Source of the DNA: a virus
Virus record (IMG/VR): IMGVR_UViG_3300020140_000007
Span: 1-22,013 of that record
Strand: one strand, 5' to 3'
Length of the DNA: 22,013 nt
Below are positions 1,193 to 13,813 of this stretch, in pieces. The translations under genes were made by a program, and so were the position numbers. Positions within the stretch are counted from its first letter, which is position 1, and each line of letters opens with the position of its first letter. Under the pieces are notes generated by a model. That model was not told where the DNA came from. It saw only the letters and a list, made by a program, of their open reading frames with translations, and did no database searches.

Positions 1193-1221
1193 GTCACTCC
1201 TCTCATGATCCTTTCGTGGGG

Positions 1222-1432: not shown

Positions 1433-1436
1433 TTGA

Positions 1437-2116: not shown

Positions 2117-2141
2117 GTCTACTCCTTGATGGTGAAGGTCT

Positions 2142-2617: not shown

Positions 2618-2649
2618 CCAATTCTGCCCCATCGTGTGAGGGCAGAAGC

Positions 2650-2826: not shown

Positions 2827-2858
2827 GTTATCTCCTGATGAGGGGGATTTATAAAGCG

Positions 2859-2913
2859 GCACAGCCTACAGTCGTGGCTTAGCGTTTTGGGCATACACTG
2901 TCGTAGGCTGTGC
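2859..2913 (-). promoter_or_regulatory. Structured leader hairpin before the 58-aa gene
   Basis: GCACAGCCTAC (2859-2869) and GTAGGCTGTGC (2903-2913) pair perfectly over 11 bp around a 33-nt loop. The hairpin ends 33 nt before the start codon at 2826, close to its ribosome site, and is followed by CGCTTTATAAAT. It may be a terminator/attenuator between the 2972-3532 and 2650-2826 genes or a stability element. Confidence 0.55.
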
Positions 2914-2971
2914 TCGTGGATCCGGCCCAATTCGATCGGGCACCCTCACGGCGTGTTCGGATCCTACCTTG

Positions 2972-3532: not shown

Positions 3533-3575
3533 CGTGTTGCCTTTCTGGTAAGCTTTTGTATTGCCTTCTACTTTT

Positions 3576-3605
3576 ATTATACAGGTTGTGCTGCTTGGAC
3601 TGCAA
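3576..3605 (-). promoter_or_regulatory. Leftward promoter, variant of the TTGTAGTC family
   Basis: TTGCAG (3605-3600), an 18-nt spacer and TATAAT (3581-3576), followed by AAAAGTAG. It drives the 2972-3532 gene. The -35 side reads CTTGCAGTCC, one base off the family core, and the spacer is one base shorter. Confidence 0.7.
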
Positions 3606-3649
3606 GAGGGATCTTGAAAATTGTTTTGGGGCTCTTTTCTCGGCCCTCG

Positions 3650-3748
3650 CTTGCCCGTAAGGACTTGAACCTTACTCCGTCAGCTCTGCCTAGCAAATGC
3701 GCCGGGTGATCGGTGACGTGTCCTGATGCCTAAAATACAGGCGGGCAA
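3650..3748 (-). tRNA. tRNA-like gene with enlarged anticodon loop and odd D arm
   Basis: On the minus strand: acceptor TTGCCCG (3748-3742) pairs with CGGGCAA (3657-3651), and one further outer pair is possible; T arm TAAGG-TTCAAGT-CCTTA is canonical. The D arm may be CCTG-TATTTTAGGCAT-CAGG, leaving no bases 8-9. CGTCA...TGACG gives a 5-bp stem where the anticodon stem should be, but the loop is 31 nt. No anticodon can be assigned safely and no CCA is encoded. It lies upstream of, and co-directional with, the promoter at 3576-3605. It could be a tRNA pseudogene or a tRNA-mimicking RNA. Confidence 0.45.
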
Positions 3749-3756
3749 GTATTCAG

Positions 3757-4206
3757 TTAGATGCCGTGCTGTTCGGGCTGGAAGACGAATGCCTCGTTAG
3801 CGTCGGCTGCCAGACCTTCCTTGACGGCGTCGGCGATCTTGTCGAGCTGATCGTCGGTCGTATCCTTCTCGACCATGTTGAACTTCATCCCCGGCTCCCG
3901 ATGCCCTGCCTCAGGCCTCGTGAGGAACGTTGGGCCATCCGTCGGAGTGCGCGGAAGGTCCGGGATCGGTCGTGAAGCGACATCCCCGTTGTCCGTGTCG
4001 ATCAGGTCGACGGTTCGCGTCTGCTCGATCCCGTCGCCGGGCTCCCGCATCTGCATAGCCATCATCACGGTTTCCCAGCGGGTCTCGTCGTCGGCGTCCA
4101 TCTCAGCTGCCCGAGCCTTGTCGAGGTCCATACCAGGGTAGGTGGCCTCGGTGTACTCGACGTCAGTGACGACCCGCACGGTGTCGATGATTCGGAACGT
4201 TTTCAC
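3757..4206 (-). CDS. Acidic hypothetical protein, 149 aa
   Basis: GTG start at 4206 (MKTFRIIDTVRVVTDVEY) with GGAG 10 nt upstream. An N-terminal beta segment is followed by an acidic helix (MDLDKARAAEMDADDETRWE), a Pro-rich linker (RPIPDLPRTPTDGP) and a C-terminal acidic helix (DDQLDKIADAVKEGLAADAN). No known domain is recognised. It is transcribed from the promoter at 4301-4331 through a highly structured leader (4232-4292), the longest leader in the left part, so this gene is the best candidate for RNA-level control. It ends 8 nt before the tRNA-like gene at 3650-3748, which may share its transcript. Confidence 0.7.
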   Translation of the reverse strand: MKTFRIIDTVRVVTDVEYTEATYPGMDLDKARAAEMDADDETRWETVMMAMQMREPGDGIEQTRTVDLIDTDNGDVASRPIPDLPRTPTDGPTFLTRPEAGHREPGMKFNMVEKDTTDDQLDKIADAVKEGLAADANEAFVFQPEQHGI

Positions 4207-4231
4207 TTGTCATCTCCAGGTTTGACGTTAA

Positions 4232-4292
4232 CAAGCAAGAGAACAGTCACAAGCTGTAGCTTCCTGTTACGCTGTGGCTATTCTCTTGCTTG
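4232..4292 (-). promoter_or_regulatory. Highly structured 5' leader RNA
   Basis: A 12-bp perfect stem (4232-4243 with 4281-4292) encloses a second stem, CACA-GC-GTA paired with TAC-GCTGTG, with two single-base bulges. It starts just after the expected transcription start of the promoter at 4301-4331 and ends about 25 nt before the GTG at 4206. Candidate cis-regulatory element or 5'-end stabiliser; no known riboswitch consensus is recognised. Confidence 0.6.
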
Positions 4293-4300
4293 CTAATTCA

Positions 4301-4331
4301 ATTATACGCTGGACATACCTCGCGACTACAA
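4301..4331 (-). promoter_or_regulatory. Leftward sigma70-type promoter (TTGTAGTC family)
   Basis: CCTTGTAGTC with -35 TTGTAG (4331-4326), a 19-nt spacer and TATAAT (4306-4301). It drives the 3757-4206 gene through its structured leader. Confidence 0.75.
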
Positions 4332-4350
4332 GGTGTCTCTTTGAGGGCTA

Positions 4351-4500
4351 TTAAATGTAGTCATGGTTCTTAGCCTTGTGCATGCGACGAGCCTGTTGCC
4401 TAGTAAGAATCGGATGCCAACCAGCAACGAACTTGAGAAAGAGGCAGGCGCACGTCCACCCAGTACAAAAGGCGGTGACTATGATCATCCACTCAGGCAT
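4351..4500 (-). CDS. Single-pass membrane protein, 49 aa
   Basis: ATG start at 4500, chosen because GGGGAGTACTCAG precedes it; an upstream ATG at 4554 lies inside the previous gene and has no ribosome site. Residues about 4-26 (WMIIVTAFCTGWTCACLFLK) form one membrane helix, followed by a positively charged tail (LTRQQARRMHKAKNHDYI) that should stay in the cytoplasm. It overlaps the previous gene by 8 nt (ATGCCTGA), so coupling is likely. Size and topology would fit an early membrane effector or superinfection factor, but nothing proves this. Confidence 0.6.
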   Translation of the reverse strand: MPEWMIIVTAFCTGWTCACLFLKFVAGWHPILTRQQARRMHKAKNHDYI

Positions 4501-4666
4501 CTGAGTACTCCCCAATCCAACCAGCGTCAGGGTGACGCAACTGCTTCGGGTCACCAGGAATAATCGGAACGGTTTTGTTCCACTTGCCCTTGATCGTGGT
4601 GTCGATGATGTCGATCACGTTACGGAGCTCATCGATGGTAACTCCGAAGTGCTTGATCTTTGCCAC
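4493..4666 (-). CDS. Small protein starting at the 3' end of a tRNA-like gene, 57 aa
   Basis: An open frame from GTG at 4666 to TGA at 4493. The product begins MAKIKHFGVTIDELRNVIDI and ends HPDAGWIGEYSDA; it has a helix then a Trp/Pro-rich tail and looks like a genuine protein. The GTG lies one base from the last base of the tRNA-like gene, with a stop codon upstream inside that gene and no Shine-Dalgarno site, so processing of the RNA would leave an almost leaderless mRNA. An internal GTG (MIDIIDTTIKGKWN) is a weaker alternative. The 8-nt overlap with the next gene supports a shared unit. Confidence 0.6.
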   Translation of the reverse strand: MAKIKHFGVTIDELRNVIDIIDTTIKGKWNKTVPIIPGDPKQLRHPDAGWIGEYSDA

Positions 4667-4667
4667 G

Positions 4668-4747
4668 AGGGGATGAAAGGAATCGAACCTCTATATACCG
4701 TGCAGCAGCCAGTAAGCACGGGCGCTCTACCATTGAGCTACATCCCC
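4668..4747 (-). tRNA. tRNA-like gene with enlarged anticodon loop (Ala-like body)
   Basis: On the minus strand: acceptor GGGGATG (4747-4741)/CATCCCC (4675-4669), TA at 8-9, D arm GCTC-AATGGTA-GAGC, T arm AGAGG-TTCGATT-CCTTT. The anticodon arm is CCGTGC-TTACTGGCTGCT-GCACGG: a perfect 6-bp stem but a 12-nt loop. The discriminator is T and no CCA is encoded. The body resembles common bacterial tRNA-Ala, but no TGC/GGC anticodon stands in the right place, so I give no isotype. Confidence 0.6.
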
Positions 4748-4767
4748 ATATGTAGTTAGGTTTCGAC

Positions 4768-4788
4768 AAAAACGATCTCCTTAGAGAT
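4768..4788 (-). terminator. Probable rho-independent terminator
   Basis: ATCTC-TAAG-GAGAT on the minus strand, then CG and TTTTT (4772-4768). The stem is short (5 bp). It separates the 4822-5031 gene from the tRNA-like gene. Confidence 0.45.
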
Positions 4789-4821
4789 GCGCCAGTTAAT
4801 CAAGCCAGCCCTGTGGGTTAC

Positions 4822-5031
4822 TCAGACGCCTACGGCTCCATTCATCGTCATGAACGCGAAGGCCGCGTCATGCCAAAGGTTGACGAAGTAGCCTGGAGCG
4901 TTGTGACGCTTCTTCGACTTGTCCAGCGACCGAACGTATCGACGCCAGCCACCACCAATTCGACCGAGCTCCCTGTCTACCCAACTCCACTTGGATTCGC
5001 AGGGCCGGATGATGTTGTTTGATCTGTGCAT
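4822..5031 (-). CDS. Basic hypothetical protein, 69 aa
   Basis: ATG start at 5031 with a strong AAGGAGGTACA site. The product is rich in Trp and Arg (ESKWSWVDRELGRIGGGWRR) with a basic middle (LDKSKKRHN) and a hydrophobic C terminus (DAAFAFMTMNGAVGV). No domain is recognised. It is the first and only gene of a unit from the promoter at 5057-5087 to the terminator at 4768-4788, and a CCCACAGGG motif (4809-4817) follows its stop codon. Confidence 0.7.
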   Translation of the reverse strand: MHRSNNIIRPCESKWSWVDRELGRIGGGWRRYVRSLDKSKKRHNAPGYFVNLWHDAAFAFMTMNGAVGV

Positions 5032-5056
5032 TGTACCTCCTTGCTAGTCTTCCTTA

Positions 5057-5087
5057 ATTATACCGTGACAATCAAGTCTGACTACAA
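5057..5087 (-). promoter_or_regulatory. Leftward sigma70-type promoter (TTGTAGTC family)
   Basis: GCTTGTAGTC with -35 TTGTAG (5087-5082), a 19-nt spacer and TATAAT (5062-5057). It drives the 4822-5031 gene with a short leader. Confidence 0.75.
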
Positions 5088-5118
5088 GCGTCTCCTCTGG
5101 TTGAGAGAAGACGCTTGT
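5084..5118 (-). terminator. Hairpin between genes, 3' arm inside the next promoter
   Basis: ACAAGCGTCT (5084-5093) and AGACGCTTGT (5109-5118) pair over 10 bp, extended by CTCT/AGAG around GGTTG. It starts 2 nt after the stop of the 5121-5411 gene. There is no U tract. Same architecture as 885-911. Confidence 0.55.
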
Positions 5119-5120
5119 GC

Positions 5121-5411
5121 TCAGGCTTGCTTCTGAGCTGGCAAACGCCTTGTGGGCGTTACCGGATTCGACCGCAACATAACTGCCATGTTCGATGCGA
5201 GCAGGGCGCATGTCATGAACTTGTTACGGTCGCCGACCGCATCCTTGTATCCCTTGTTGTCACGTAGGAGCACTGACGCGTCGTTCTTGTTGCCAGCCCT
5301 ATTAAGGGCCTGCTTCTCGTACTCATTTACGAGTTCCTGCATCTCAAGGTACTGAGCGTAGCAGAGTACTGCCTCTTGTGCATAGTATTGTGGATTGGTT
5401 AGGTCGGGCAT
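5121..5411 (-). CDS. Helical hypothetical protein, 96 aa
   Basis: ATG start at 5411, chosen because AAAGGAGGAAAAC precedes it; the upstream ATG at 5444 would read through this ribosome site. The product MPDLTNPQYYAQEAVLCYAQ... is mostly alpha-helical with a probable amphipathic bundle (YLEMQELVNEYEKQALNRAG; NKFMTCALLASNMAVML). Two Cys are present without a zinc pattern. Function unknown. It ends directly before a hairpin and a new promoter, so it closes its unit. Confidence 0.7.
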   Translation of the reverse strand: MPDLTNPQYYAQEAVLCYAQYLEMQELVNEYEKQALNRAGNKNDASVLLRDNKGYKDAVGDRNKFMTCALLASNMAVMLRSNPVTPTRRLPAQKQA

Positions 5412-5438
5412 GTTTTCCTCCTTTGTAACCATGAAGGC

Positions 5439-5456
5439 CGACATCCTTAGATGTCG
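5439..5456 (-). other. Compact intergenic hairpin
   Basis: CGACATC-TAAG-GATGTCG on the minus strand: 7 perfect pairs and a 4-nt loop, between the stop of 5467-5796 and the ribosome site of 5121-5411. It has the same C(TAAG)G loop as the terminator at 4768-4788 but no T tract. Confidence 0.5.
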
Positions 5457-5466
5457 ACCAACATTG

Positions 5467-5796
5467 CTACATGGTGGAAAGGAAGTCGTGCGTGGGTGTT
5501 AGCACGATCTCATCGAGGCTGTGGTCCGTCACCTCAACGTGTGGAACGAATCCGCTTTCGTCGAGGCCGATGTCCGTCACGTTGCCACTACGCATTTGCT
5601 TGGGGGTATACTTCCTGGCCTTGTGCTCCAGGAGGTCCTGCGCCTGACGTACCCTTGCCAGATGCGGCCGGGCAACCAACCGTCCAGCTCCCACGTTCTT
5701 CAGGGAGGCGCACTTCTTGCCCTTTTGCTGACCGCAGAGCGGACATCCAACGTGGAGTGCCCTGATCTCGCCAGGATTGAGTTGTACCTTACGCAC
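5467..5796 (-). CDS. Phage zinc-finger protein (CPLCG type)
   Basis: 109 aa from GTG at 5796, chosen because GAGGAGAGAAC stands just before it; an in-frame ATG at 5811 lies inside the upstream gene. Residues about 15-50 hold CPLCGQQKGKKC followed by a His (RPHLARVRQAQD), the CxxC...C...H pattern of short phage DNA-binding zinc fingers common in actinophages. The rest has no motif and ends in an acidic stretch. It overlaps the 5789-5977 gene by 8 nt. The gene at 6616-7053 has the same finger. A nucleic-acid or host-factor binding role is inferred from the family. Confidence 0.72.
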   Translation of the reverse strand: MRKVQLNPGEIRALHVGCPLCGQQKGKKCASLKNVGAGRLVARPHLARVRQAQDLLEHKARKYTPKQMRSGNVTDIGLDESGFVPHVEVTDHSLDEIVLTPTHDFLSTM

Positions 5797-5977
5797 GTTC
5801 TCTCCTCGCATGTACTTGTACGATTCCAGTGGGGGATTTGGAAACGCGGACGATCTCGAGCTGATCGCCCACCTGGTACACTGTGCCTGGACCGTCGGTC
5901 AGAACGATCTGTATCTCAAGATCGTTCTCTCCCATGAACGCCCGATGAAGGTGTTCAAGGGCTTGTGTGTACTTCAC
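5789..5977 (-). CDS. Small beta-rich protein, 62 aa
   Basis: GTG start at 5977 with AAAGGAGGTAGT upstream; the longer frame from 6079 only overlaps the preceding gene and is rejected. The product MKYTQALEHLHRAFMGENDL... has a short N-terminal helix and then strands (EIQIVLTDGPGTVYQVGDQL, IVQVHARRERA) that suggest a small beta-barrel such as an SH3-like fold. No family is recognised. The stop TAA overlaps the start of the zinc-finger gene, so the two are probably translated together. Confidence 0.65.
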   Translation of the reverse strand: MKYTQALEHLHRAFMGENDLEIQIVLTDGPGTVYQVGDQLEIVRVSKSPTGIVQVHARRERA

Positions 5978-6027
5978 ACTACCTCCTTTCCATGAACGCA
6001 CACGTCTCCGAACGTGTGCGAACAAAG

Positions 6028-6252
6028 CTAGGAGCTTTCGTCGACTTTTACTACCAGATCTCCGAACGGGCACTTGCATTCACCCGTAGCGCTCCGTTCG
6101 ATGTTACCCTCCGGAAGCTTGATCACATGCAGACCTCGCTGGTAAGGGTTCTTGGTGAAGTACTCGGCGGTCGGGTGGTTCTTGCAGGTGAGCGCGAACA
6201 TGTCTGGTCCAGGCTCTGGAAAACGGAACTCTTTTACAGGCACCAATGGCAT
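6028..6252 (-). CDS. Possible zinc-binding small protein, 74 aa
   Basis: ATG start at 6252 with AAGGAGGTAGCC. It has LTCKNHPTAEYFTKNPYQRG and later ATGECKCPFGDLVV; one Cys and one His followed by a CxC could coordinate a metal ion, which would give a small ribbon. No membrane segment. It is co-directional with its neighbours, about 50 nt from the 5789-5977 start. Function unknown; the zinc idea rests on Cys/His spacing alone. Confidence 0.7.
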   Translation of the reverse strand: MPLVPVKEFRFPEPGPDMFALTCKNHPTAEYFTKNPYQRGLHVIKLPEGNIERSATGECKCPFGDLVVKVDESS

Positions 6253-6310
6253 GGCTACCTCCTTCCACAGCCAACGACGAACCGAGGCTCGCCGATGACT
6301 GAAGCTGGAG

Positions 6311-6616
6311 CTAGAACTTTGGCTCGAACCACTCTCGGATGTCGAGCTTGATCTCGCCTCGCTTGGTGTGAACGACGGTCACCCGAAGTTCACCTTCCTT
6401 GTAGGGTATCGCAACGTACACCTTGCGGCCGAAGTTGTCCTTCTCCTCGGTCCACTGGTTCATCTCGCTTTCCAGCAGCGAGTCGAGGATGGGATCGAAC
6501 GCCTTGTCGTCCGCATCCTCGTCGCTGTAGCAGATGTCGATGTCCTCGAGCACCTTCTGCAGCCAGTTGAGATAACGGTCGTTCAGTTCGAGGTGTGCAC
6601 CCTTACCTGGAAGCAT
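6311..6616 (-). CDS. Acidic hypothetical protein, 101 aa
   Basis: ATG start at 6616 behind AAAGGAGAGTA; the stop of the upstream zinc-finger gene overlaps it as TAATG. The N-terminal half is helical and very acidic (VLEDIDICYSDEDADDKAFD); the second half forms strands (GRKVYVAIPYKEGELRVTVV, GEIKLDIREWFEPKF). An acidic, DNA-mimic-like surface is possible but unproved. No known domain is recognised. It is the second gene of the 7053-6311 pair. Confidence 0.7.
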   Translation of the reverse strand: MLPGKGAHLELNDRYLNWLQKVLEDIDICYSDEDADDKAFDPILDSLLESEMNQWTEEKDNFGRKVYVAIPYKEGELRVTVVHTKRGEIKLDIREWFEPKF

Positions 6617-7053
6617 TACTCTCCTTTTCGTACGCCGTCGACGATGATCGCGGCGATGCTACGATCGATGGCTGACTGGATCGTTCCGATCGACCGGGCA
6701 AAGTTGATTGCCCAGAGAACCGTCTGGATCCGCTCTTCCCGTGATCCGGACAAGGTCGTAGCCCAATCGGCGAGGATGTTCTCCTTGCCATGGTCTACTG
6801 CTGGCTCCGATGGTCCAAAGCTGTCATCCTCCTGGTGTACTCGGTTGTCGCCGTTCTTGACCAACCCACCAGTGGAATCCTTGCTCCACACGCTGCCACC
6901 GCTGGCGTCGTTGAAACTCTTCCACAGTTCCTTGCGGGCCTTGTGCGACTGTGCAGGTGGGTACCTGCGGCGGCCTGTACCATCAGCCACCTCACACCTG
7001 TTACCAACCGCAGCACCACATGCGGGGCACACAACCGTTAGGTACTTATGCAT
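6616..7053 (-). CDS. Phage zinc-finger protein (CPACG type)
   Basis: 145 aa, ATG start at 7053 after GGAGGGTGA. The N terminus YLTVVCPACGAAVGNRC plus SHKARKELW gives CxxCGxxxGxxC...H, the same finger as in the 5467-5796 protein. The remainder (about residues 45-145) has a Gly/Ser/Asp-rich linker and a helical C terminus (TIQSAIDRSIAAIIVDG). It overlaps the next gene by 2 nt. Such fingers usually bind nucleic acid or host proteins in actinophages, but the target is unknown. Confidence 0.72.
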   Translation of the reverse strand: MHKYLTVVCPACGAAVGNRCEVADGTGRRRYPPAQSHKARKELWKSFNDASGGSVWSKDSTGGLVKNGDNRVHQEDDSFGPSEPAVDHGKENILADWATTLSGSREERIQTVLWAINFARSIGTIQSAIDRSIAAIIVDGVRKGE

Positions 7054-7076
7054 TCACCCTCCACTGTCAAACGGGT

Positions 7077-7100
7077 CCCTGTCTCATCATTCCCACAGGG
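7077..7100 (-). other. Short intergenic hairpin including a CCCACAGGG motif
   Basis: CCCTGT (7077-7082) pairs with ACAGGG (7095-7100). A longer-range AACGGGTC/GACCCGTT pair surrounds it (about 7070-7145). It lies in the gap before the 6616-7053 gene. Confidence 0.4.
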
Positions 7101-7156
7101 GCTTTCCGTCCGTGAGCAACGGCGCTACTTCGATGCTGACCCGTTGCTTCCCTGTT

Positions 7157-7636
7157 TCAGTACGAAACTCCTTGTGCAGTCAAAGCCTTGATGGCGGCTT
7201 CTGTGTTACGGAGCTCTTCCGTAAGGAACGCCTCGTCCTCTTGGCTCCAGCTCGGGTGACCGTTGTACTTGCTGGTAAGGTCGAGATGAAGTCGTTGCTT
7301 GTAGGAACGAAGAGCGAACCAGACAGTCTTTCCATGGTTCTCGTTCAGCGTTACAGCGCCGACTTCTAACCCGTCGAGAGCTGCAATCTCCCAGCCGCTG
7401 ACAGTATAGAGGCGAATACCTAGATTCCAGCCGTCGTCCACCCAGCCTTCGAAGGCCTCACCGTCCTCGTTAATTCCGCGAACCCAGTGGATTTCCTCCT
7501 CTTCGCCCATCTCGAACATCCGAGTCATGGTATCGAAGAGTGCCTTCTCGTCGTATCCCAAAGTGCGGATATCGCTGAGTGTAGCGTCATCGATTTCCAC
7601 CTTGTACTTACGGGCGACCTTTATAGTTGTAGGCAC
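7157..7636 (-). CDS. Hypothetical protein, 159 aa
   Basis: GTG start at 7636 with AAAGGAGG 10 nt upstream. The product begins MPTTIKVARKYKVEID and has an acidic helix (MTRMFEMGEEEEIHWVRG), a Gly/Trp-rich beta middle (FEGWVDDGWNLGIRLYTV) and a C-terminal helical part (SWSQEDEAFLTEELRNTEAA). No catalytic motif or membrane segment is seen. The family is not recognised. It is followed by a 100-nt gap with hairpins and preceded by the 46-aa gene at 7712-7852. Confidence 0.7.
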   Translation of the reverse strand: MPTTIKVARKYKVEIDDATLSDIRTLGYDEKALFDTMTRMFEMGEEEEIHWVRGINEDGEAFEGWVDDGWNLGIRLYTVSGWEIAALDGLEVGAVTLNENHGKTVWFALRSYKQRLHLDLTSKYNGHPSWSQEDEAFLTEELRNTEAAIKALTAQGVSY

Positions 7637-7711
7637 GATGAATGCCTCCTTTCGAAGATTGGCTGCTTCGATGCTACGGCCTTGTTTCAGCCGACCAACC
7701 CTTTCCCTTTG

Positions 7712-7852
7712 TTACTCCGGCAGCGGTGGACAAGTCCAGTCGCCGTCGAAGAGCACATCCAAGGCCTCTCGATGCGCCTCAACCCACTCAGCGGTCACGA
7801 TGGCCTTGAAGTGCCAATCTCCGTTGATCCTGACAAACAGTCCGTAGACCAT
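7712..7852 (-). CDS. Small protein, 46 aa
   Basis: ATG start at 7852 with AAGGGAGACTGAT upstream, one base after the stop of the 7854-8075 gene. The product begins MVYGLFVRINGDWHFKAIVT and ends in DWTCPPLPE. It has two strands and one helix (AEWVEAHREALDVLF) and looks like a compact folded protein rather than chance coding. The tight spacing and ribosome site make it a real gene despite its size. Function unknown. Confidence 0.68.
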   Translation of the reverse strand: MVYGLFVRINGDWHFKAIVTAEWVEAHREALDVLFDGDWTCPPLPE

Positions 7853-7853
7853 A

Positions 7854-8075
7854 TCAGTCTCCCTTCGGAGCTTCTACCCGCCAGAGAACGTCGTCTCCCG
7901 CGTCACCGCTTTCGCCGAACTTGAAGTAAGCCGCCTCACCATCGGATGGCCAGACGATTAGATCGAAGTCCGAGTGTAGCGAGATCTCCACCTTGACGAT
8001 GTCTCCCTCGCGTTCGGTGTCGAGACCTGCGATCTCCTGCAGGTAGTCGACGATGTCTTGCTTGTGTTCGGACAT
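7854..8075 (-). CDS. Acidic small protein, 73 aa
   Basis: ATG start at 8075 with GAAGGGAAC 6-10 nt upstream. The N terminus is a helix (EHKQDIVDYLQEIAGLDTE) followed by strands (IVKVEISLHSDFDLIVWP, AAYFKFGE), and the protein ends LWRVEAPKGD. It is acidic overall. No family is recognised. It is followed directly by the 46-aa gene, so the two form a translational pair. Confidence 0.7.
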   Translation of the reverse strand: MSEHKQDIVDYLQEIAGLDTEREGDIVKVEISLHSDFDLIVWPSDGEAAYFKFGESGDAGDDVLWRVEAPKGD

Positions 8076-8168
8076 TCAGTTGTTCCCTTCGGAGTGATGG
8101 ACTCGTCGGCGTAGGCATTACCTACGGACAACGTTCGTCTCCCGACAATCGCTGTTTCGTCCTTGTTC

Positions 8169-8342
8169 TTACTCTCCTACCTCCGGAAAGTAGCCCTCGA
8201 TGGGTTCGGTGTTACGCTCCTGCTCTCCCCAGAAGTCGCAATCGATCTTATGAAGGCGCTCCGTTAGCTCCTTCATCTTTGGGAGCTCCCTCGGGTCGTA
8301 CACTACCAGGTAGCGACTCCCTTTGTTACCCTTGTTGATCAT
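8169..8342 (-). CDS. Small protein, 57 aa
   Basis: ATG start at 8342; upstream GAAAGG is a modest ribosome site 8 nt away. The product MINKGNKGSRYLVVYDPREL continues with a charged helix (PKMKELTERLHKIDCDFWGE) and ends FPEVGE, giving a beta-alpha pattern. It lies between the 7854-8075 and 8447-8722 genes in the same direction and fills a gap that would otherwise be empty. A paired-hairpin module (8363-8435) lies directly upstream. Function unknown. Confidence 0.65.
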   Translation of the reverse strand: MINKGNKGSRYLVVYDPRELPKMKELTERLHKIDCDFWGEQERNTEPIEGYFPEVGE

Positions 8343-8362
8343 GTTACCGGCCTTTCTATCTC

Positions 8363-8435
8363 AACGGTCAACTGATGATTCTGACCGTTTAGGGCCGAAC
8401 GTTTAGGACCTGGATAACTCATCCCTAGCGAGTTA
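8363..8435 (-). promoter_or_regulatory. Two-hairpin intergenic module (third, weaker copy)
   Basis: AACGGTCA/TGACCGTT (8363-8370, 8382-8389) around ACTGATGATTC, and TAACTC/GAGTTA (8415-8420, 8430-8435) around ATCCCTAGC. The loops resemble those of the modules at 8754 and 9054, but the order of the two hairpins is reversed. GTTTAGG occurs twice between them. Confidence 0.45.
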
Positions 8436-8446
8436 CCGTTGATCTT

Positions 8447-8722
8447 TTACGAAATGTTCCGCCGATCCAGCTTGGCGAGGTTGTTGGCACTTGCTCCTTG
8501 GCGGATGTGCCAATCTACCGTGTTGTCGAAGTCGCACGGATTGATCTTGTAGAACTGTGCGGCCATCTGCAACACTCTGTCGCGATGACGATCGACCGCT
8601 TTCTTCATGGCAGTCTTTTTGCCAGATGGATCCAACGGTAGGTCCGCCACATCCAAAGGCGCAACGATGACAGCGATGAGTGCCGCCATCCCCTCTGGAT
8701 GGTACTGCTTTGGAATTTTCAT
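8447..8722 (-). CDS. Hypothetical protein, 91 aa
   Basis: ATG start at 8722 with CTGGAG 6 nt upstream. The product MKIPKQYHPEGMAALIAVIV... has a hydrophobic helix (residues 12-26, not long or apolar enough for a certain membrane span) and a basic middle (KKTAMKKAVDRHRDRVLQMA), then an N/D-rich tail. No known domain is recognised. It is flanked on both sides by two-hairpin modules. Confidence 0.68.
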   Translation of the reverse strand: MKIPKQYHPEGMAALIAVIVAPLDVADLPLDPSGKKTAMKKAVDRHRDRVLQMAAQFYKINPCDFDNTVDWHIRQGASANNLAKLDRRNIS

Positions 8723-8753
8723 TCGTTACTCCAGTGTGATGGATTGGAGTGGC

Positions 8754-8815
8754 TCGAACGAACCCCGTGATCGTTCGAACTGGAAATGTAGGAGAGCTGA
8801 TGAGACTCTCCTACA
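8754..8815 (-). promoter_or_regulatory. Two-hairpin intergenic module
   Basis: On the minus strand, TGTAGGAGAG/CTCTCCTACA (10 bp, loop TCTCATCAG), 8 nt, then TCGAACGA/TCGTTCGA (8 bp, loop TCACGGGGT). It lies between the stop at 8825 and the start at 8722. TTTCC after the first hairpin suggests termination or 3'-end formation. The loops match the module at 9054-9110; the stems do not. Confidence 0.6.
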
Positions 8816-8824
8816 CCTCTACGT

Positions 8825-9040
8825 TTACATGTACGCTAGGAAGTTACCATCGTCATCGACGATGGTACCAGAGAACTCGTGCTCTCCTTCTCCTCCTGTG
8901 CAGTACAAATTGCCATCGTCCAACTTCCAGTACGCTCCGTCCTTGAAGAAAACGAACGGCGCAGCATCAGCAGCTGGATTGGACTCGGCGGAGATTACCG
9001 CCGAGGTGTGCGTGTTGCATCGAATCTGAAACTTAAACAA
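8825..9040 (-). CDS. Small beta-rich acidic protein, 71 aa
   Basis: TTG start at 9040 with a very strong AGGAGGTAAGACC. The product begins MFKFQIRCNTHTSAV and has repeated beta hairpins (FVFFKDGAYWKLDDGNLYCT, FSGTIVDDDGNFLAYM) with two Cys. A secreted or disulphide protein is unlikely because no signal peptide is present. Function unknown. The two-hairpin module directly before the ribosome site (9054-9078 hairpin) could control its translation. Confidence 0.7.
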   Translation of the reverse strand: MFKFQIRCNTHTSAVISAESNPAADAAPFVFFKDGAYWKLDDGNLYCTGGEGEHEFSGTIVDDDGNFLAYM

Positions 9041-9053
9041 GGTCTTACCTCCT

Positions 9054-9110
9054 CTCAGTAGACCCCGCGACTACTGAGCGAAGATGATAGGCTGATGTGG
9101 CCTATCATCT
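9054..9110 (-). promoter_or_regulatory. Two-hairpin intergenic module next to a ribosome site
   Basis: On the minus strand, AGATGATAGGC/GCCTATCATCT (11 bp, loop CACATCA), 3 nt, then CTCAGTAG/CTACTGAG (8 bp, loop TCGCGGGGT), directly followed by AGGAGG and the TTG start at 9040. It lies after the stop of the 9122-9451 gene. Both stems are perfect. Confidence 0.6.
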
Positions 9111-9121
9111 CCTACGCCTGT

Positions 9122-9451
9122 TTAGAACTCTCTCGTCCAATCCTCTTGCTCTTGTCCTGTTCTGTCACTATAAACGGCTTTGACAAAATCCAAGCCGTAG
9201 AATCGTGACGAGCCAGGACTTTGAGCAATGATCCTCTGGTTCAGAGTTCCTTGATTAGATACAGGTCGCTTACCAAGCTTCTGACCTGCCTTACATCCAA
9301 TACCAGGACTCATCAGCGATCGGATCCGATCTTCGATTCGGCTAGATTCTGAGTCAGTCTGTCCGTTTCGAAGTCTAGCCTCTCGTTCAGCCATTAGCTG
9401 CTCGAGTTCGACTAGGCGGAGCTCTCGCTCCTTGTACAGGTAGTTACGCAT
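9122..9451 (-). CDS. Coiled-coil hypothetical protein, 109 aa
   Basis: ATG start at 9451 with ACAGGAGTAAC. Residues 1-45 form a charged coiled coil (KERELRLVELEQLMAEREAR); the remainder is a basic, Gln/Gly-rich region (GCKAGQKLGKRPVSNQGTLN) ending in EDWTREF. The N-terminal part could dimerise the protein. No enzyme motif is present. It is the first gene after the promoter at 9515-9544, with a 60-nt AT-rich leader. Confidence 0.68.
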   Translation of the reverse strand: MRNYLYKERELRLVELEQLMAEREARLRNGQTDSESSRIEDRIRSLMSPGIGCKAGQKLGKRPVSNQGTLNQRIIAQSPGSSRFYGLDFVKAVYSDRTGQEQEDWTREF

Positions 9452-9514
9452 GTTACTCCTGTCTCTGTGTGGTGCTATTTAGTTGATAGGTGTTGATGTT
9501 TTGTTGCTAATTCT

Positions 9515-9544
9515 ATTATATAGTGAGGCTACAACGGAACACAA
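9515..9544 (-). promoter_or_regulatory. Leftward sigma70-type promoter
   Basis: -35 TTGTGT (9544-9539), an 18-nt spacer and TATAAT (9520-9515). GACCCTTG before the -35 matches the upstream part of the other family members, and TTGTAG also occurs inside the spacer. It drives the 9122-9451 gene. Confidence 0.65.
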
Positions 9545-9603
9545 GGGTCTTTTTAGGTGCTCTTTCAAGATCTTTTGCCGGGTTATTGGTAAGGTAAAGA
9601 CCC
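9545..9603 (-). terminator. Inverted repeat overlapping the promoter upstream edge
   Basis: GGGTCTTT (9545-9552) and AAAGACCC (9596-9603) pair perfectly over 8 bp, 43 nt apart. As at 885 and 5084, the 3' arm abuts the next -35 element, after the stop of the 9620-9895 gene. Confidence 0.4.
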
Positions 9604-9619
9604 ACAGGGCGAGTTTCCC

Positions 9620-9895
9620 TTAATCCCACCAGTGGTCGTGTTTCTTCCCTAAAGACGGGCAAGAGAGGGCGGCGCAACGTTCGGCGCGGCTCTCGTAACA
9701 CTGGAAATTGAGTAGCCCCCGAGTCATGTCACGACTACATTGAAACCTGACAAACTTACGAGCTGCCCTAGCTTTCGTGAATAGCATAGACCTGAATGAC
9801 AGCATCTCGGATCTTGTTTCGTACTCGACACGGACTATACGTCCGTCGAGCCATTGTTCCCATAACATCTTCGAATGCTTAAGCGGTGGCTCCAC
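9620..9895 (-). CDS. Paralogue of the following protein, 91 aa
   Basis: GTG start at 9895 with GAGG 10 nt upstream; ATG at residue 10 is an alternative start. It shares its layout with the 9901-10326 protein: W, then F/L at fixed spacing, a basic helix (LFTKARAARKFVRFQCSRD) and a strand ending FQCYESRAERCAAL, compared with FQYFKSTEERDAKW. It is Arg- and Cys-rich and probably binds nucleic acid or metal. The two neighbouring genes are likely a tandem duplication. Function unknown. Confidence 0.62.
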   Translation of the reverse strand: MEPPLKHSKMLWEQWLDGRIVRVEYETRSEMLSFRSMLFTKARAARKFVRFQCSRDMTRGLLNFQCYESRAERCAALSCPSLGKKHDHWWD

Positions 9896-9900
9896 TGATC

Positions 9901-10326
9901 TTAGTCCTCAGGTCCTTTGTCGCCATATCCGTCATCGTACTCTACAGCCCACTTAGCATCTCGTTCTTCGGTAGACTTGAAGTACTGAAATCCGATACGT
10001 CCTCCAAGACCCTTCGTTTCCGTTTTCAGGATAAGACCCGAAGACCTGGCTCGGTTGTGCAACCTCTGCTGTAACGCACTGAGCGTGATCCCGAATTCCG
10101 TTGGTTCGGCATCGTGATATTCGCCGTTAGTCCAGAGTAGCCACGGGTATTTCATGGTCTGACCTGATTTGGAAGGAAGTTGGTTATCTATCTTACTATC
10201 TACCTTGCTAGGTAGATAGGTAGGTAGGTGGGTAGATGGATGGGTAGGTAGATAGCCAGTAGTTGCCTCCTTACCAAAAACCTTCTCAAGATCAGCGTCA
10301 GTGACGGGGTCAAATGATCTAGACAC
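9901..10326 (-). CDS. Hypothetical protein with tetrapeptide repeats, 141 aa
   Basis: GTG start at 10326 with AAAGGG 6 nt upstream. Residues 24-50 are a low-complexity stretch (YLPTHPSTHLPTYLPSKVDS) coded by an imperfect tetranucleotide repeat; the 12-nt period makes a four-residue repeat. Residues 58-130 are a folded domain (YPWLLWTNGEYHDAEPTEFG) similar to the 9620-9895 protein, ending in an acidic tail. The repeat length could change by whole 4-nt units and would then shift the frame. Promoter at 10377-10407. Confidence 0.68.
   Translation of the reverse strand: MSRSFDPVTDADLEKVFGKEATTGYLPTHPSTHLPTYLPSKVDSKIDNQLPSKSGQTMKYPWLLWTNGEYHDAEPTEFGITLSALQQRLHNRARSSGLILKTETKGLGGRIGFQYFKSTEERDAKWAVEYDDGYGDKGPED
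10183..10255. repeat. Tetranucleotide repeat (GTAG/GATA class) inside a gene
   Basis: About 70 bp of imperfect TATC/TACC on one strand and GATA/GGTA on the other, including the dyad CTATCTACC-TTGCTA-GGTAGATAG. Related units occur outside the gene at 10362-10378 and 10494-10509. Type: short tandem repeat. Confidence 0.75.
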
Positions 10327-10376
10327 AGTATACCCTTTCTGGGTAGCTATCTAACTAGCTTGTTATCTATCTACCT

Positions 10377-10407
10377 ATTATACTGTGACTACATTACTCG
10401 ACTACAA
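10377..10407 (-). promoter_or_regulatory. Leftward sigma70-type promoter (TTGTAGTC family)
   Basis: -35 TTGTAG (10407-10402), a 19-nt spacer and TATAAT (10382-10377), with TGTAGTC present twice. It drives the 9901-10326 gene; the leader contains GATA repeats. Confidence 0.75.
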
Positions 10408-10871
10408 TGGGGCGCTTTTCTATACTAAACGTCTATAAACCCGGTTTCCGAACGAGTGCTTTTTGTGAAAAATCCATCGGACCTGTCCCAGGCTATCTAT
10501 CTATCTATCCTCTGTGTATATAGAAACATAATACTACCTGTATATATACTACTATATAAGTGAGGGATAGGGGATTGGAGTCGGGAATTAGTATCATATT
10601 ATACTGTACACGAAGGGCTTGTGGGTTTATAGAGAAAATTTTGTTACTATCTACCCAGCTAGTTAGATAGTTACGTGGATAGTTAACTTCCGTACCCCTG
10701 TCACCGGGGCGCACTCGCCCTATTTCATCCCGTTTTACCCGTCTCGCAAATCCCTCCCGACGCCCCGTGGGATTCCTGTGTAGTTCGATCAGGGGGTCCG
10801 TACCCTAAATGCGGAATGCCCGAGAGGCCGAGTGAAGCAGAATTTTTCCTGGACCTGTATCGTCCTCCCGC

Positions 10872-10928: not shown

Positions 10929-10956
10929 CGGATAAAACAGTATAAATCCGGACATA
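10929..10956. repeat. 28-nt inverted copy of the decamer array
   Basis: The reverse complement of these 28 bases is identical to 11849-11876. It is the only clear array segment on the left side of the 11038-11418 gene. Confidence 0.8.
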
Positions 10957-10982: not shown

Positions 10983-11016
10983 GATCATGAGTAGGTTGGT
11001 TAGACGAACCTTCGGA
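10983..11016. repeat. Left arm of the inverted repeat around the 11038 gene
   Basis: 34 bases matching the reverse complement of 11389-11422 at 32 positions. It would encode MSRLVRRTFGTY and a stop rightward, an inverted copy of the start of the flanked gene. Confidence 0.75.
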
Positions 11017-11037
11017 ACTTACTAGTTAGTTCGGAAC

Positions 11038-11418
11038 TTACTTGTTCGTAACCGACTCAAGATCCAATTCGAGCTGGTTAGGATCTTGAATCTGCATGAT
11101 CTGGATCTTGTTACGCTCCAAGTAACGAACTAGGAAGTTCCGTACTTCCTCGTTCGTAACGTTCCTGAGGTTCTCTCCGAAGATCTTTTCGCCTTTTACG
11201 ATCATTCCGTTCCGGAGGTAGTTATACATCATCTGAGGACGAACCTCAGCCTTACCTACGCTCCGTAGGATCGTGTTAAGGATCTTAGAAATACCATACG
11301 CAGTATATAGATCCTCTGTGACGTACTCTTCGATACTAAACATAGCGCTTACCCTTCGGTTAGGTGTGTATCGAGATCTTTGAATCCCTCCGAAGGTTCG
11401 CCTAACGAACCTACTCAT
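11038..11418 (-). CDS. HTH-like DNA-binding protein beside the decamer array
   Basis: 126 aa from ATG 11418, with GGAGAGAGG upstream; ATG at MFSIEEYV with AAGGG upstream is an alternative. The N terminus is highly basic (MSRFVRRTFGGIQRSRYTPN). The core IEEYVTEDLYTAYGISKILN and PQMMYNYLRNG resembles the 2972-3532 protein and reads as a helix-turn-helix. The C terminus is a charged helix ending LDLESVTNK. It is the only gene in the centre, flanked by 34-bp inverted repeats, with the decamer array right upstream, so it may bind the array. This is inference from position and fold. Confidence 0.65.
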   Translation of the reverse strand: MSRFVRRTFGGIQRSRYTPNRRVSAMFSIEEYVTEDLYTAYGISKILNTILRSVGKAEVRPQMMYNYLRNGMIVKGEKIFGENLRNVTNEEVRNFLVRYLERNKIQIMQIQDPNQLELDLESVTNK

Positions 11419-11422
11419 GATC
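11389..11422. repeat. Right arm of the inverted repeat around the 11038 gene
   Basis: It overlaps the first codons of the 11038-11418 gene and contains the dyad GGTTCG-TTAGG-CGAACC. It pairs with 10983-11016 (32/34). Confidence 0.75.
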
Positions 11423-11460
11423 CTCTCTCCGCTCCGTAGGATCTGGAGCATATGGAGGTA

Positions 11461-12000
11461 AATCCGGCCTTATGCGGATATAGTGCGGAATGTCCTGGAT
11501 TTTGCTGTGTAGTACGATTTTATCCTCTCTGTGCATATTATCCGGTGCTTTATGATGATGATGCAGGACATTTCCGCATAACTCGTGTTATGTCCGGATT
11601 TATCGTTCTATATCGGTCCATACTGCGCTATGTCCGGATATTTGCTACTTTATCAGCTAAATTACGGTTTTATGACCTTTGTTCAGGTTATGTACTCTTT
11701 TACCGGTAAATATGGCGAATTTCCATACTATGAGCCGGTTTATCCGAGTATATCCGCACTTTTCCGTCATTATCCGCAGATACGGTGCTTTATCCGTAGG
11801 TACTACGAAAACGTCCGTTATAATGCGCTTTACCATGGTATTTCTCCTTATGTCCGGATTTATACTGTTTTATCCGGACATACCGCGGTATGGACCGATA
11901 TATCCTGCTCTGTCACGATTTAGTTGTCAATATACGGATAAGTACGGATTTCACCCGATTTATCGGTTCATATCCGGATATGTCCGGATTTAGCCGGCGG
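11461..12000. repeat. Helically phased array of about 54 degenerate decamers
   Basis: Cut every 10 bases from 11461, 45 of 54 blocks begin with T and 50 of 54 end with A or T, while the middle of most blocks is C/G-rich. Consensus TATCCGGATT; exact forms TGTCCGGATT and TATCCGGATA recur. AT steps at every helical turn alternating with CG steps is the pattern of a strongly bent DNA. Plus-strand frames through it are Tyr-rich products of the periodicity, not genes. It covers the upstream side of the 11038-11418 gene and ends about 300 bp before the packaging genes. Confidence 0.8.
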
Positions 12001-12232
12001 TTTCTGTACTTATAACTATATTATATCACATTTTTCAAGATCTTTACCGACCCGAGGGTTCTAGTAGCTGCGAGAGTAAAAAACAAAGAGACGTTTGATA
12101 GACATACTAGCATCTCTTTACTACTAAACAGCCTAGTAGAAAGTCTCTCTATAATTCTAACTAGTCTAAGTAAAGGTCTATTTAAACCTAGAGAGTTTGG
12201 TTAGAAGTGAGTAGTACCTTAAGGAGGTATAC
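12001..12232. other. AT-rich spacer upstream of the late promoter
   Basis: No gene. Hairpins AAAGAGA/TCTCTTT (near 12088-12119) and CTACTA-AACAGCC-TAGTAG (about 12121-12139), and several TATAAT-like stretches (near 12015 and 12150) without clear partners. Confidence 0.5.
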
Positions 12233-12282
12233 TGAGATATAGTGAATTGTTGGCCTTTATACGAGGAACAAGGTATAATCAG
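12233..12282 (+). promoter_or_regulatory. Late promoter, copy 1
   Basis: A 23-base block, TGAGATATAGTGAATTGTTG plus GCC (12233-12255), 18 nt, then TATAATCAG (12274-12282). With TTGGCC as -35 the spacer is 18 nt. The same block, spacing and -10 occur at 19809-19858. It drives the 12305 gene and probably the genes to the portal. Confidence 0.75.
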
Positions 12283-12304
12283 ATGAAGGACCCTGGGAGG
12301 TGTG

Positions 12305-12625
12305 ATGAGCAAGATCGATAGGGACTCAAGAGTGGATCTCTCTGACGAAGCGTTGGCAGCTATCAACATGGAGCGCATCCTCGAGCCTGACAAGACGCAC
12401 GAGGAAATTGCTCGCGAGATCCTCATGTCATCTGCTCCGATGGCTGCGAAGTCGGTAGCTTGGTTGTCAGCCCATGCGTCGGCGGAGCAAGTGCGGCTAG
12501 CGGCTTCCAAGTACATCATCGACGGTGTGGTCGGTGGTGGGTTCAAGGCTGCAGGCTCTGTGGACGACTTGCTCATGTCATTGGTTTCGCAACTGGCTTC
12601 CAACGATGTAGAGGTCATGGAATAA
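12305..12625 (+). CDS. Possible terminase small subunit
   Basis: 106 aa, ATG at 12305 with GGGAGG 4 nt upstream (GTG at 12302 is too close). The protein is helical: LSDEALAAINMERILEPDKT, then AREILMSSAPMAAKSVAWLS and EQVRLAASKYIIDGVVGGGF. The pattern EVRLxAAKYIIDxV is typical of small terminases and related packaging proteins in actinophages. It is the first late gene, 1.8 kb before the large terminase, next to the phased array. No sequence search was made; another small virion or regulatory protein remains possible. Confidence 0.5.
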   Translation: MSKIDRDSRVDLSDEALAAINMERILEPDKTHEEIAREILMSSAPMAAKSVAWLSAHASAEQVRLAASKYIIDGVVGGGFKAAGSVDDLLMSLVSQLASNDVEVME

Positions 12626-12633
12626 AGCAAGCC

Positions 12634-12662
12634 GCCCCTGTGGGTCTTTACTCCATAGGGGC
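12634..12662 (+). terminator. 11-bp hairpin between the first two late genes
   Basis: GCCCCTGTGGG (12634-12644) pairs with TCCATAGGGGC (12652-12662), three G-U pairs, loop TCTTTAC. It is followed by CCGG and a ribosome site, not by a T tract, so it is more likely an mRNA processing or stability element than a terminator. Confidence 0.55.
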
Positions 12663-12682
12663 CCGGTTGCATAGGAGGAAAG

Positions 12683-13222
12683 ATGCCGAATAGGCAAGCG
12701 CAGCTTGGCGATACTGTTCAGTATCGCGATGCTCGGGGTAAGACACACAACATTCAGGTCATTGGGACACAAGCGAATACGGGAGCAGCGCCTGCGGCCC
12801 CAGCGGTTGCGAATAGCGGTACCGGTGGGGTGCTAACAGCTGCTACGTACAGCTACAGGATTTCGGCTGTACGCTTTGGCGCTGAATCCCTTGCGTCGGC
12901 AGCTGGGACAACGGTGGTCGGTGCGGGTACTACGAACAAGTGCACGATCACGTTGCCGGGTGTAGCTGGGGTGCAGTACGCCATCTATGGCCGCGTTGGG
13001 GGTTCCGAACTCTTTATCGGTCTCAGTGCGCTGGGAGCTAGTTCCTTCGATGATACTGGCAGCGTTGTTACGCCGGCTGGAGCATTGCCTTCCACAGACG
13101 GTAGGGTAGGTGCGATCCAGTACCACCAGGAGCCGGAGATGCTCGGGATGCCTGGGCAGCCGACGTCGCCGCTACTGAAGGCAACCTCGGTAGCTTCCGT
13201 GAACGCCTACTTCAAGTACTAA
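12683..13222 (+). CDS. Beta-rich virion protein, probably decoration or fibre-like
   Basis: 179 aa, ATG at 12683 after AGGAGGAAAG. Residues 1-30 have short basic strands (LGDTVQYRDARGKTHNIQVI); residues 35-140 are Ala/Gly/Thr-rich strands (AATYSYRISAVRFGAESLAS), the repeat pattern of a fibronectin-III or similar beta sandwich; the C terminus has QYHQEPEMLGMPGQPTSPLL. The composition is typical of phage surface proteins. The gene stands between the putative small terminase and the Acb2-like gene. No named family is recognised. Confidence 0.6.
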   Translation: MPNRQAQLGDTVQYRDARGKTHNIQVIGTQANTGAAPAAPAVANSGTGGVLTAATYSYRISAVRFGAESLASAAGTTVVGAGTTNKCTITLPGVAGVQYAIYGRVGGSELFIGLSALGASSFDDTGSVVTPAGALPSTDGRVGAIQYHQEPEMLGMPGQPTSPLLKATSVASVNAYFKY

Positions 13223-13235
13223 GAGAAGGGAGACC

Positions 13236-13478
13236 ATGTTGAGTAGCTGGGATGGTAGGCACCCGAGCGTCCAGCATTTCGAGGACTTGTTCATGTATGA
13301 CCACCTGCCTGAAGGTCTTCTGCGTGACACTTCTATGGTGCTTAGTCAGGTAGCGGGCACGATGCTTACCGTGCTTGAGGATGGACCTGAGCTGAGCGCA
13401 GGTCTTCGCAAGCTGCTAGAGGCTAAGGACTGCTTTGTACGTCAGGCAGTCAAGGACCGGAAGAAAGCTGCAGGGTAA
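13236..13478 (+). CDS. Acb2/Tad1-hairpin-like protein, candidate anti-CBASS
   Basis: 80 aa, ATG at 13236 with GAAGGGAGACC. Short N-terminal part HPSVQHFEDLFMYDHLPEG, then two helices: one through MVLSQVAGTMLTVLEDGPE, and a second LSAGLRKLLEAKDCFVRQ. The order (aromatic plus HLPE motif, helix, DGPE turn, helix with LRKLLEAKDCxVR) resembles the Acb2/Tad1 hairpin family. Acb2 of phages such as T4 (Vs.4) and PaMx33 sequesters the cyclic-nucleotide signal of CBASS as a hexamer. Similar short proteins are frequent near the structural genes of actinophages. The assignment is from pattern memory; binding residues were not verified. The next gene overlaps it by one base. Confidence 0.55.
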   Translation: MLSSWDGRHPSVQHFEDLFMYDHLPEGLLRDTSMVLSQVAGTMLTVLEDGPELSAGLRKLLEAKDCFVRQAVKDRKKAAG

Positions 13479-13813
13479 TGGGAGTCTACACCGGCGGGAA
13501 TACAGGAAGTGGGGATACGCACATGGCCAGCATGATTAGTGGTGGCAAGAACCAGCCGAGTAGGGGAATCAAGAAAGCTGCTAAGGCAGCACCAGCGAAG
13601 AAGGTGGCGAAGGTGGCAAAGAAGGCGGTAGCAGCTGAGTCGCCGGCCGTTGAGTCGGCTGAGGTCGGAACGCCTCGACAGAAGAAGGCGACAGCTGCCA
13701 GCAAGAAGGTACCGCGTAAGGTGGCTAAGGCAGCTGCCCCGACGGCTCGCGTAAGGCGACAAGCTACGCTGATGGCAACCAAGAACAACAGTAATGCCAT
13801 TGGTGGGTACTAA
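13478..13813 (+). CDS. Lys/Ala-rich histone-like protein
   Basis: 111 aa from ATG 13478 (TAATG with the previous gene). ATG at 13523 (MASMISGGKN) with GGGGATACGCAC is an alternative start. Residues 30-90 are Lys-Ala repeats (KKAAKAAPAKKVAKVAKKAV), like the C-terminal tail of histone H1 and bacterial HupS-type proteins, with conserved Pro breaks. It is basic throughout and should bind DNA without sequence preference. The late position suggests a virion or genome-condensing role, but a regulatory role is possible. Confidence 0.65.
   Translation: MGVYTGGNTGSGDTHMASMISGGKNQPSRGIKKAAKAAPAKKVAKVAKKAVAAESPAVESAEVGTPRQKKATAASKKVPRKVAKAAAPTARVRRQATLMATKNNSNAIGGY

Follow-up and report, generated by a model that had tools for sequence, protein, structure and literature searches.

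A 10-bp A/T-G/C lattice over stem-enclosed one-gene cassettes in a group of related phages

What is a 540-bp run of ten-base units doing in a phage genome? The window analysed here is the whole stretch of 22,013 nucleotides from the uncultivated-virus record IMGVR_UViG_3300020140_000007 of IMG/VR. Its positions 11461-12000 form a lattice of 54 units of degenerate TATCCGGATA, assigned to neither strand, in which A/T and G/C alternate. A sequence-only reading of this DNA had counted a T at the start of 45 of the 54 ten-base blocks and an A or T at the end of 50. Both counts were exact (the 50 being 27 A and 23 T), and the consensus of the blocks is TATCCGGAT(A/T). The period-10 peak exceeded all shuffled controls (chi2 of 364.5, shuffle maximum of 58.8), with none of 2000 shuffles reaching the value of the array. 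Per degree of freedom, chi2 was 13.5 in the array and at most 1.61 in non-overlapping 300-bp windows of the 22-kb window. An HMM of the unit gave a spacing of exactly 10 in 52 of 52 gaps, and the global period was 10.002. The 10-bp rhythm of the window is real.

The 10-bp lattice and its phylogenetic range

The same reading had placed the units in strict helical phase. The exact 10-bp step stood, whereas its equality with one turn of relaxed DNA did not. Relaxed B-DNA has about 10.5 bp per turn, so a step of 10.00 drifts by some 2.6 turns over 54 units and does not imply a strict helical phase. The units were also said to be too degenerate for a plain satellite, and indeed Tandem Repeats Finder gave only 11751-11778 within the array. 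A or T fills the central three positions in most units (84-96% per position in the window; for the related locus L031, 86-95%). The comparison of 11001-12700 with known phages by DNA similarity gave no match, and we know of no phage element that accounts for a strict 10-base A/T-G/C rhythm.

Relatives were viral contigs retrieved via the HTH gene that neighbours the array and via the large terminase, and we scanned loci L006-L075 together with the window, then L107-L224, for the lattice. The exact 10-bp lattice defines a core group of seven distinct phages: the window's own (G001, also L006), L028 (G002), L029 (G003), L030, L031, L032 (G004), and L039 (G006). Their periods are 9.974-10.002 and their coherence is 0.97-1.10, full across up to 1.1 kb; L036 has an eighth core lattice, truncated by the contig end. 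The lattice signal is restricted to a single place in each of the five core records of 53-55 kb, and the related records G005, G007, G010, and G012, each of 51-55 kb, have no lattice. A sister group with the same kind of unit comprises L051, L052, L054, L069, L134, L136, L139, L140, L141, L146, L147, L150, L152, and L154, with weaker signals of the sister type in L053 and L048. Best periods in the 14 sister loci are 9.27-9.73, the units being spaced by 9 or 10 bp over kilobases. Unlike the core, the sister group loses phase coherence over the full length (0.14-0.26). In nine sister loci we counted 821 coding spacings of 9, 539 of 10, 31 of 8, and 24 of 11; the non-coding spacings were 729 of 9, 697 of 10, 54 of 8, and 44 of 11. 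The spacing HMM left out L048, L051, L052, L053, L054, L141, and L152, and L150 was used in the sister spacing set only. Exact W/S patterns proved too insensitive as a query of the viral collection and were not used.

The proposal that the phase is preserved better than the sequence was borne out by the relatives, which retain the phase with different letters. Unit types vary among phages and among segments within one phage (TATCCGGATA, TCG-type, CCGGTTTAGA, and CAAATCCGGT), and A and T interchange between segments of a single array (L030, L039). Despite these changes of letters the phase of the A/T triplets is largely constant, except for a drift in L039 and a phase slip in L030. The latter, by some bases, occurs inside a gene in which 18 nt are inserted compared with L031, and the old phase is not regained. 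Poly-C tracts were seen immediately left of the lattice in L031 (about 1143-1155) and L032 (about 15-32), and in L032 the break of the contig lies close to the tract.

The lattice spans coding and non-coding DNA and extends leftward across small genes whose Shine-Dalgarno sequences are good. Its power was matched by at most 1 in 1000 synonymous-codon shuffles in 12 of the 13 core array ORFs tested (one further core ORF, from L028, was omitted for an internal stop). The window ORF was weaker, with 39 of 1000 shuffles reaching its power. Eight of 13 sister-clade ORFs were at 0/1000 and the remaining five at 3-45/1000, and five HTH-gene controls showed no lattice beyond their synonymous shuffles (172-794/1000). 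Homologues of array genes exist only between some of these phages. Where they do, the lattice was retained in five pairs at 46-66% protein identity and in a sixth at 35% (17/49). Codons with shared fourfold sites in such homologues were identical in 29 of 51 cases; since the lattice was kept despite this level of agreement, its maintenance is favoured over a relic.

The array had been placed between the HTH gene and the packaging genes. The position is right, yet the array itself holds a small leftward ORF of 59 aa (11657-11836, minus strand), stem-enclosed and led by the Shine-Dalgarno sequence AAGGAGA, whose homologue in G002 matches at 69% over 49 aa (tblastn). On the left, the lattice ends short of the conserved HTH-like gene (11038-11418, minus strand, 126 aa), a stem cassette that lies off the lattice. 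On the right, its boundary in an 80-bp phase table adjoins a conserved element at 12014-12042 (minus strand), GATCTTGAAA-N-TATAATATAG, which we infer to be a leftward promoter with TATAAT as its -10. The core of this element, AACTATATTA on the plus strand, occurred in 18 of the 18 lattice loci checked, in single copy except for a second one in L152, and the longer promoter-like pattern in 14 stretches of the viral collection. A simple sigma-70 scan did not call the leftward promoter. A 28-bp exact inverted copy of the lattice segment 11849-11876 is found at 10929-10956 (plus strand), where it precedes the next leftward ORF.

We rejected the HTH gene as the dedicated partner of the lattice, as it occurs in lattice-free phages and was not found in 16 sister-clade loci, which are fragments. 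For the possibility that its product binds as a MerR/Xis/Cox-type filament, the model of the product had a mean pLDDT of 68; the top structural rows were EF-hand proteins with Z under 6, and the MerR-type CadR had a Z of 3.5. A second conserved protein with an HTH-gene-like motif (PPQVVYSYIKN) is encoded at 2972-3532 of the window (minus strand) and was present in 9 of the 9 searched records of 51-55 kb. A lysine/alanine-rich histone H1-like protein is coded at 13478-13813, between the terminase genes. The conserved stretch 12050-12300 separates the promoter-like element from the small terminase gene and is rich in TAGAC/GTCTA words. It has homologues in L028, L031, L033, L036, and L047, most of which share GAGATATAGTGAATTGTTG-like words, and is possibly a structured late leader. 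It had no Rfam match, and known RNA families across the window gave three tRNA matches only.

Stem-enclosed one-gene cassettes

The small early genes are flanked by private pairs of complementary arms of about 30 nt. We scanned 29 sources for such arms, and the 22 non-duplicate sources with arms gave 85 pairs. An ORF of at least 25 aa led by a Shine-Dalgarno sequence lay inside 83 of the 85 (taking the longest ORF; 39-163 aa) and occupied 84% of the loop (median). Its start codon was 27 nt past the 5' arm and its stop 12 nt ahead of the 3' arm (medians). Neighbouring cassettes abutted within 9 bp in 33 of 63 cases. The window array contains one cassette, 11609-11902, where the 5' arm of the leftward mRNA (11871-11902, minus strand) is paired at 30 of 32 positions with the 3' arm (11609-11640, minus strand). 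The HTH gene forms another, 10983-11422, with 32 of 34 positions paired between its 5' arm (11389-11422) and its 3' arm (10983-11016), both on the minus strand.

Scans of nine whole records of 51-55 kb gave 19 arm pairs, of which 18 were at the HTH gene or in adjoining cassettes; the one remaining pair (G004 3326-3462) has no ORF inside. HTH-region cassettes are present in the lattice-free G005, G007, and G010 too. No arm pairs were found in the control stretches (window 1-10500 and L134 8100-16000), in L036, L051, and G012, or in the stretches scanned of phages Wollypog (50 of 63 kb) and Kurnik (14 of 56 kb). Control inverted repeats numbered 16 in 384,166 bp, all within two of 21 control loci (L166 and L196). 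These two are bacterial MAG contigs, and their long inverted repeats are clustered. Stem cassettes without the W/S lattice were seen in L124 (1314-3300), L110 (4870-6670), and L114 (880-3790). These regions are 5-8 fold enriched in GATC and have a different rhythm in the same place, of purines and pyrimidines with a period of about 4.3-4.6.

Within one genome, arms matched those of other cassettes at 0.432 (n=156), and across genomes at 0.399, as measured on 46 of the 85 stems; the within-cassette match of 0.895 is high because arms were found by complementarity. The privacy of the arms, the enclosure of the genes and the bias towards G.U do not follow from the arm search, which scored G.U and A.C both as mismatches. 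Away from the stem centre, the ratio of G.U to A.C was 39:5 in the 85 stems (P 1.4e-7) and 22:2 in 22 additional stems taken from nine further loci, our second set (P 3.6e-5), P values that overstate independence because related phages share stems by descent. The ratio was 29:3 in the 46 centre-aligned stems. The second set was obtained with a score limit of 17 instead of 19 and had an ORF in 21 of its 22 stems. It includes L048, with its weak lattice signal, a low-complexity pair in L142, and two pairs in L124 that cross each other. Homologous cassettes, compared in seven cases, differed by 4-17 double compensatory changes and by 0-3 one-sided ones, part of this excess being due to how the arms were found. 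The tolerance of G.U far above A.C indicates that pairing matters in the mRNA, as a DNA-level site would lack a preference for G.U. An excess of G.U might also arise if mutation on the mRNA strand were biased from C to T, an explanation that the A-rich and T-poor loops (0.32 and 0.20) make less likely.

The stems, of about 30 bp, are roughly symmetric around two central pairs. The centre consists of a mismatch, two base pairs, and a mismatch in 46 of the 85; these mismatches are the alignment criterion, and only their letters are informative (C.A in 83%, A.C in 76%). The aligned stem table omits the 39 stems that lack such a centre. This centre was present in 7 of the 22 stems of the second set, two of which have C.A/A.C, and the window's own stem lacks the C-W-W-A centre.

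Array RNA outfolds shuffled versions in which the units or the phase are preserved, because of its long inverted repeats. The native energy was below that of all 24 unit-order shuffles in seven of eight segments, and that of the window was below 23 of 24. Loop ORFs folded better than their synonymous shuffles (mean z of -2.38 for 14 core ORFs and -1.61 for 43 sister-clade ORFs), and this foldability was weak in the lattice-free L124 (mean z of -0.71, 5 ORFs); HTH cassettes and some wide spans were left out of this test. Among 13 arrays folded whole, the mRNA strand had no consistent advantage (lower in 6, equal in 1, higher in 6). We rejected local hairpins between neighbouring units, as short-range complementarity is only slightly raised.

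Alternative explanations of the lattice and the cassettes

The location between early and packaging genes had suggested a pac/cos site, a gyrase-wrapping site, a centromere-like site or a replication origin. We regard this whole class as very improbable, as the array overlays genes. The lattice is missing from G010, G012, G005, and G007, and the last two have large terminases closer to that of the window (76% identity) than is that of the lattice-bearing L039 (69%). Hence, the lattice is dispensable for packaging, which speaks against a pac/cos site. Wrapping by gyrase is positive and should favour a period above 10.5; the observed step is 10.0 or about 9.4. No partition ATPase (ParA), partition filament gene or integrase was among the hits of 51 of the 102 called G001 proteins (Pfam, and the 25 of 43 PHROGs families listed), and the array lies in the leftward early region over coding sequence. 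A transcription-pause array (G-10 Y-1 G+1, 10-nt step) was rejected as well, since the strongest constraint appears to fall on the A/T positions and not on the pause letters. The lattice might instead be the decayed relic of an expanded 10-bp satellite, as the exact and nearly indel-free 10-bp steps of the core clade and the slip of L030 without re-locking, in the gene with the insertion relative to L031, would suggest. We find such a relic improbable, given that the lattice is kept in homologous genes though their fourfold codons agree in 29/51 cases, and that the letters of the units shift while the A/T phase stays. It is also rather unlikely that the cassettes are mobile units of DNA with arms serving as recombination or transposon ends. 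They do hold a single gene each, their ends often abut, and array genes are homologous between some phages only. Yet, G.U far above A.C is not expected from DNA ends, the arms are cassette-specific and offer no shared recombination ends of the integron or transposon kind, and their two central bases are complementary between arms, not identical.

Two other accounts of the lattice deserve more weight. It may be a DNA signal, with A/T triplets every 9-10 bp bound in the minor groove by a filament of a phage or host protein that covers the early region at a 10-bp step, much as phi29 p6 might at 12 bp, and we keep this as a possible reading of less than even probability. Reading through the minor groove would permit the swapping of A and T at the A/T-rich central positions; the full coherence up to 1.1 kb, the rarity of spacings of 8 and 11, and the excess over synonymous shuffles in coding DNA point the same way. 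However, we saw no protein cluster common to the five lattice-bearing records of 53-55 kb and missing from the four lattice-free ones, the HTH gene is found in lattice-free phages too and was not found in the fragmentary 16 sister-clade loci, and the arms are left unaccounted for. The other account, possible rather than probable, makes the lattice a side effect of selection for mRNA that is structured throughout, its reverse-complement symmetry letting any two stretches pair. In all eight segments, phase-column shuffles, in which nothing but the lattice is preserved, average better folds than composition shuffles, and ORFs outfold their synonymous shuffles. Moreover, L124, L110, and L114 have no lattice and show their own GATC-rich pattern with the purine-pyrimidine period of 4.3-4.6. 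Selection for structure leaves unexplained the exact step of 10 in one clade; adjacent units show little extra complementarity, and the peak of perfect 7-mers falls instead at the distance of the arms.

Proposed processing of the early transcript and its relation to known systems

In our best reading, the array of one-gene cassettes opens the leftward early region of the phage. As read from the sequences, each cistron lies from before its ribosome-binding site to just past its stop in the loop of a predicted stem of about 30 bp with private arms. Two clades superimpose on these cassettes an A/T-G/C lattice, exact at 10 bp in the window's clade and of 9 or 10 in the sister clade. We favour, with slightly better than even confidence, an early operon of stem-enclosed cistrons with RNase III-type processing and a separate, unexplained layer in the 10-bp lattice. 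A common leftward transcript would start at the promoter-like element and span the cassettes. An enzyme of the RNase III type would then cut both strands of each stem near its centre, leaving about 15 bp of helix on each side, and each early cistron would be freed as its own mRNA, like pre-16S and pre-23S rRNA. The lattice would be a separate layer, either read in the DNA by a protein with a footprint of 9-10 bp or kept for the foldability of the mRNA, two possibilities that we hold about equally.

We propose excision of this type because RNase III makes two cuts flanking two base pairs, which the centre of the stems fits. Arms of about 30 bp with a G.U bias would supply double-stranded RNA spanning two or more helical turns, going by their sequence, and the geometry of 46 of the 85 stems would suit cleavage with the 2-nt 3' overhang of RNase III. 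The arms, their privacy, their position, and their strand can be read off the genomes; the cutting, the enzyme, and the benefit are what we infer from them. The Pfam hits of the 51 scanned G001 proteins included no RNase III family, and so a host enzyme is assumed. We give even chances to a more general statement, that this is an undescribed architecture of one-cistron cassettes with co-varying stems of symmetric centre, set on a 9-10 bp lattice that acts as a second code read by a filament or through self-pairing of the mRNA.

We found no described equivalent in the part of the literature covered by our search. The closest likenesses in action are with pre-rRNA and with T7 early mRNA. In pre-rRNA, long-range stems of roughly 25-30 bp enclose each product of a polycistronic transcript and are cut by RNase III. 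The phage stems are likewise long-range, enclosing, symmetric, and suited to a double cut, but they enclose small protein genes, with one private stem per cistron, and part of them have a centre of C.A, 2 bp, and A.C, where cleavage is predicted. The RNase III sites of T7 early mRNA are local hairpins between genes. They share with the cassettes an early polycistronic phage mRNA and cutting between genes (proposed for the cassettes), but the arms of a cassette flank the gene whereas T7 hairpins are intergenic. Start-associated sequences of cluster K mycobacteriophages are short words repeated near gene starts, a likeness to the phages studied here; we know of no description of a lattice or of gene-enclosing arms for them. 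A start-associated word ahead of every gene was not general across our genomes, and we rejected it.

For the lattice, the closest parallel is with the signals of phi29 p6. As described in PMC10899789, phi29 p6 contacts DNA every 12 bp, forms a right-handed superhelix, and has higher affinity at genome ends; the likeness lies in a periodic pattern of bendability without fixed sequence and in minor-groove contacts. The lattice differs in its step (10.0 or 9-10 bp), in its length of up to kilobases, and in running through genes. The families listed for 51 of the 102 called G001 proteins (25 of 43 PHROGs families) included no p6-like protein. In prokaryotic chromosomes, a curvature-related periodicity of 10-11 bp is a genome-wide statistical signal, as described in PMC3431218 and PMC7537859, and the former describes strong curvature periodicity as generally absent in phages. 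The phasing of A/T is shared with this signal; the lattice is instead local, exact, and very strong.

The gene content of G001 was surveyed through 51 of its 102 called proteins, with a complete list of Pfam families and 25 of 43 PHROGs families listed. These families include DNA polymerase A, helicase, primase, Sak4, exonuclease, and FolE/QueC/QueD/QueE, and neither an integrase nor a partition gene was among them. The phage of the window is probably virulent. The homologues of FolE, QueC, QueD, and QueE are among the early and middle genes of G001, which suggests 7-deazaguanine in its DNA. Naming a host from the terminase was abandoned, as the best of 57 genome loci were at 53-55% (Bacterium UASB270, SAR202 MAG) and too distant.

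To our knowledge, no phage shows a stricter A/T-G/C periodicity than this lattice. It falls in a group of genomes for which PMC3431218 reports no strong periodicity of this kind. A single short phage region would carry two overlapping codes atop its protein-coding sequence. The stems offer the virus a route from one early transcript to separate mRNAs for each gene, and they would allow new early genes, probably directed against the host, to be added as self-contained packets.
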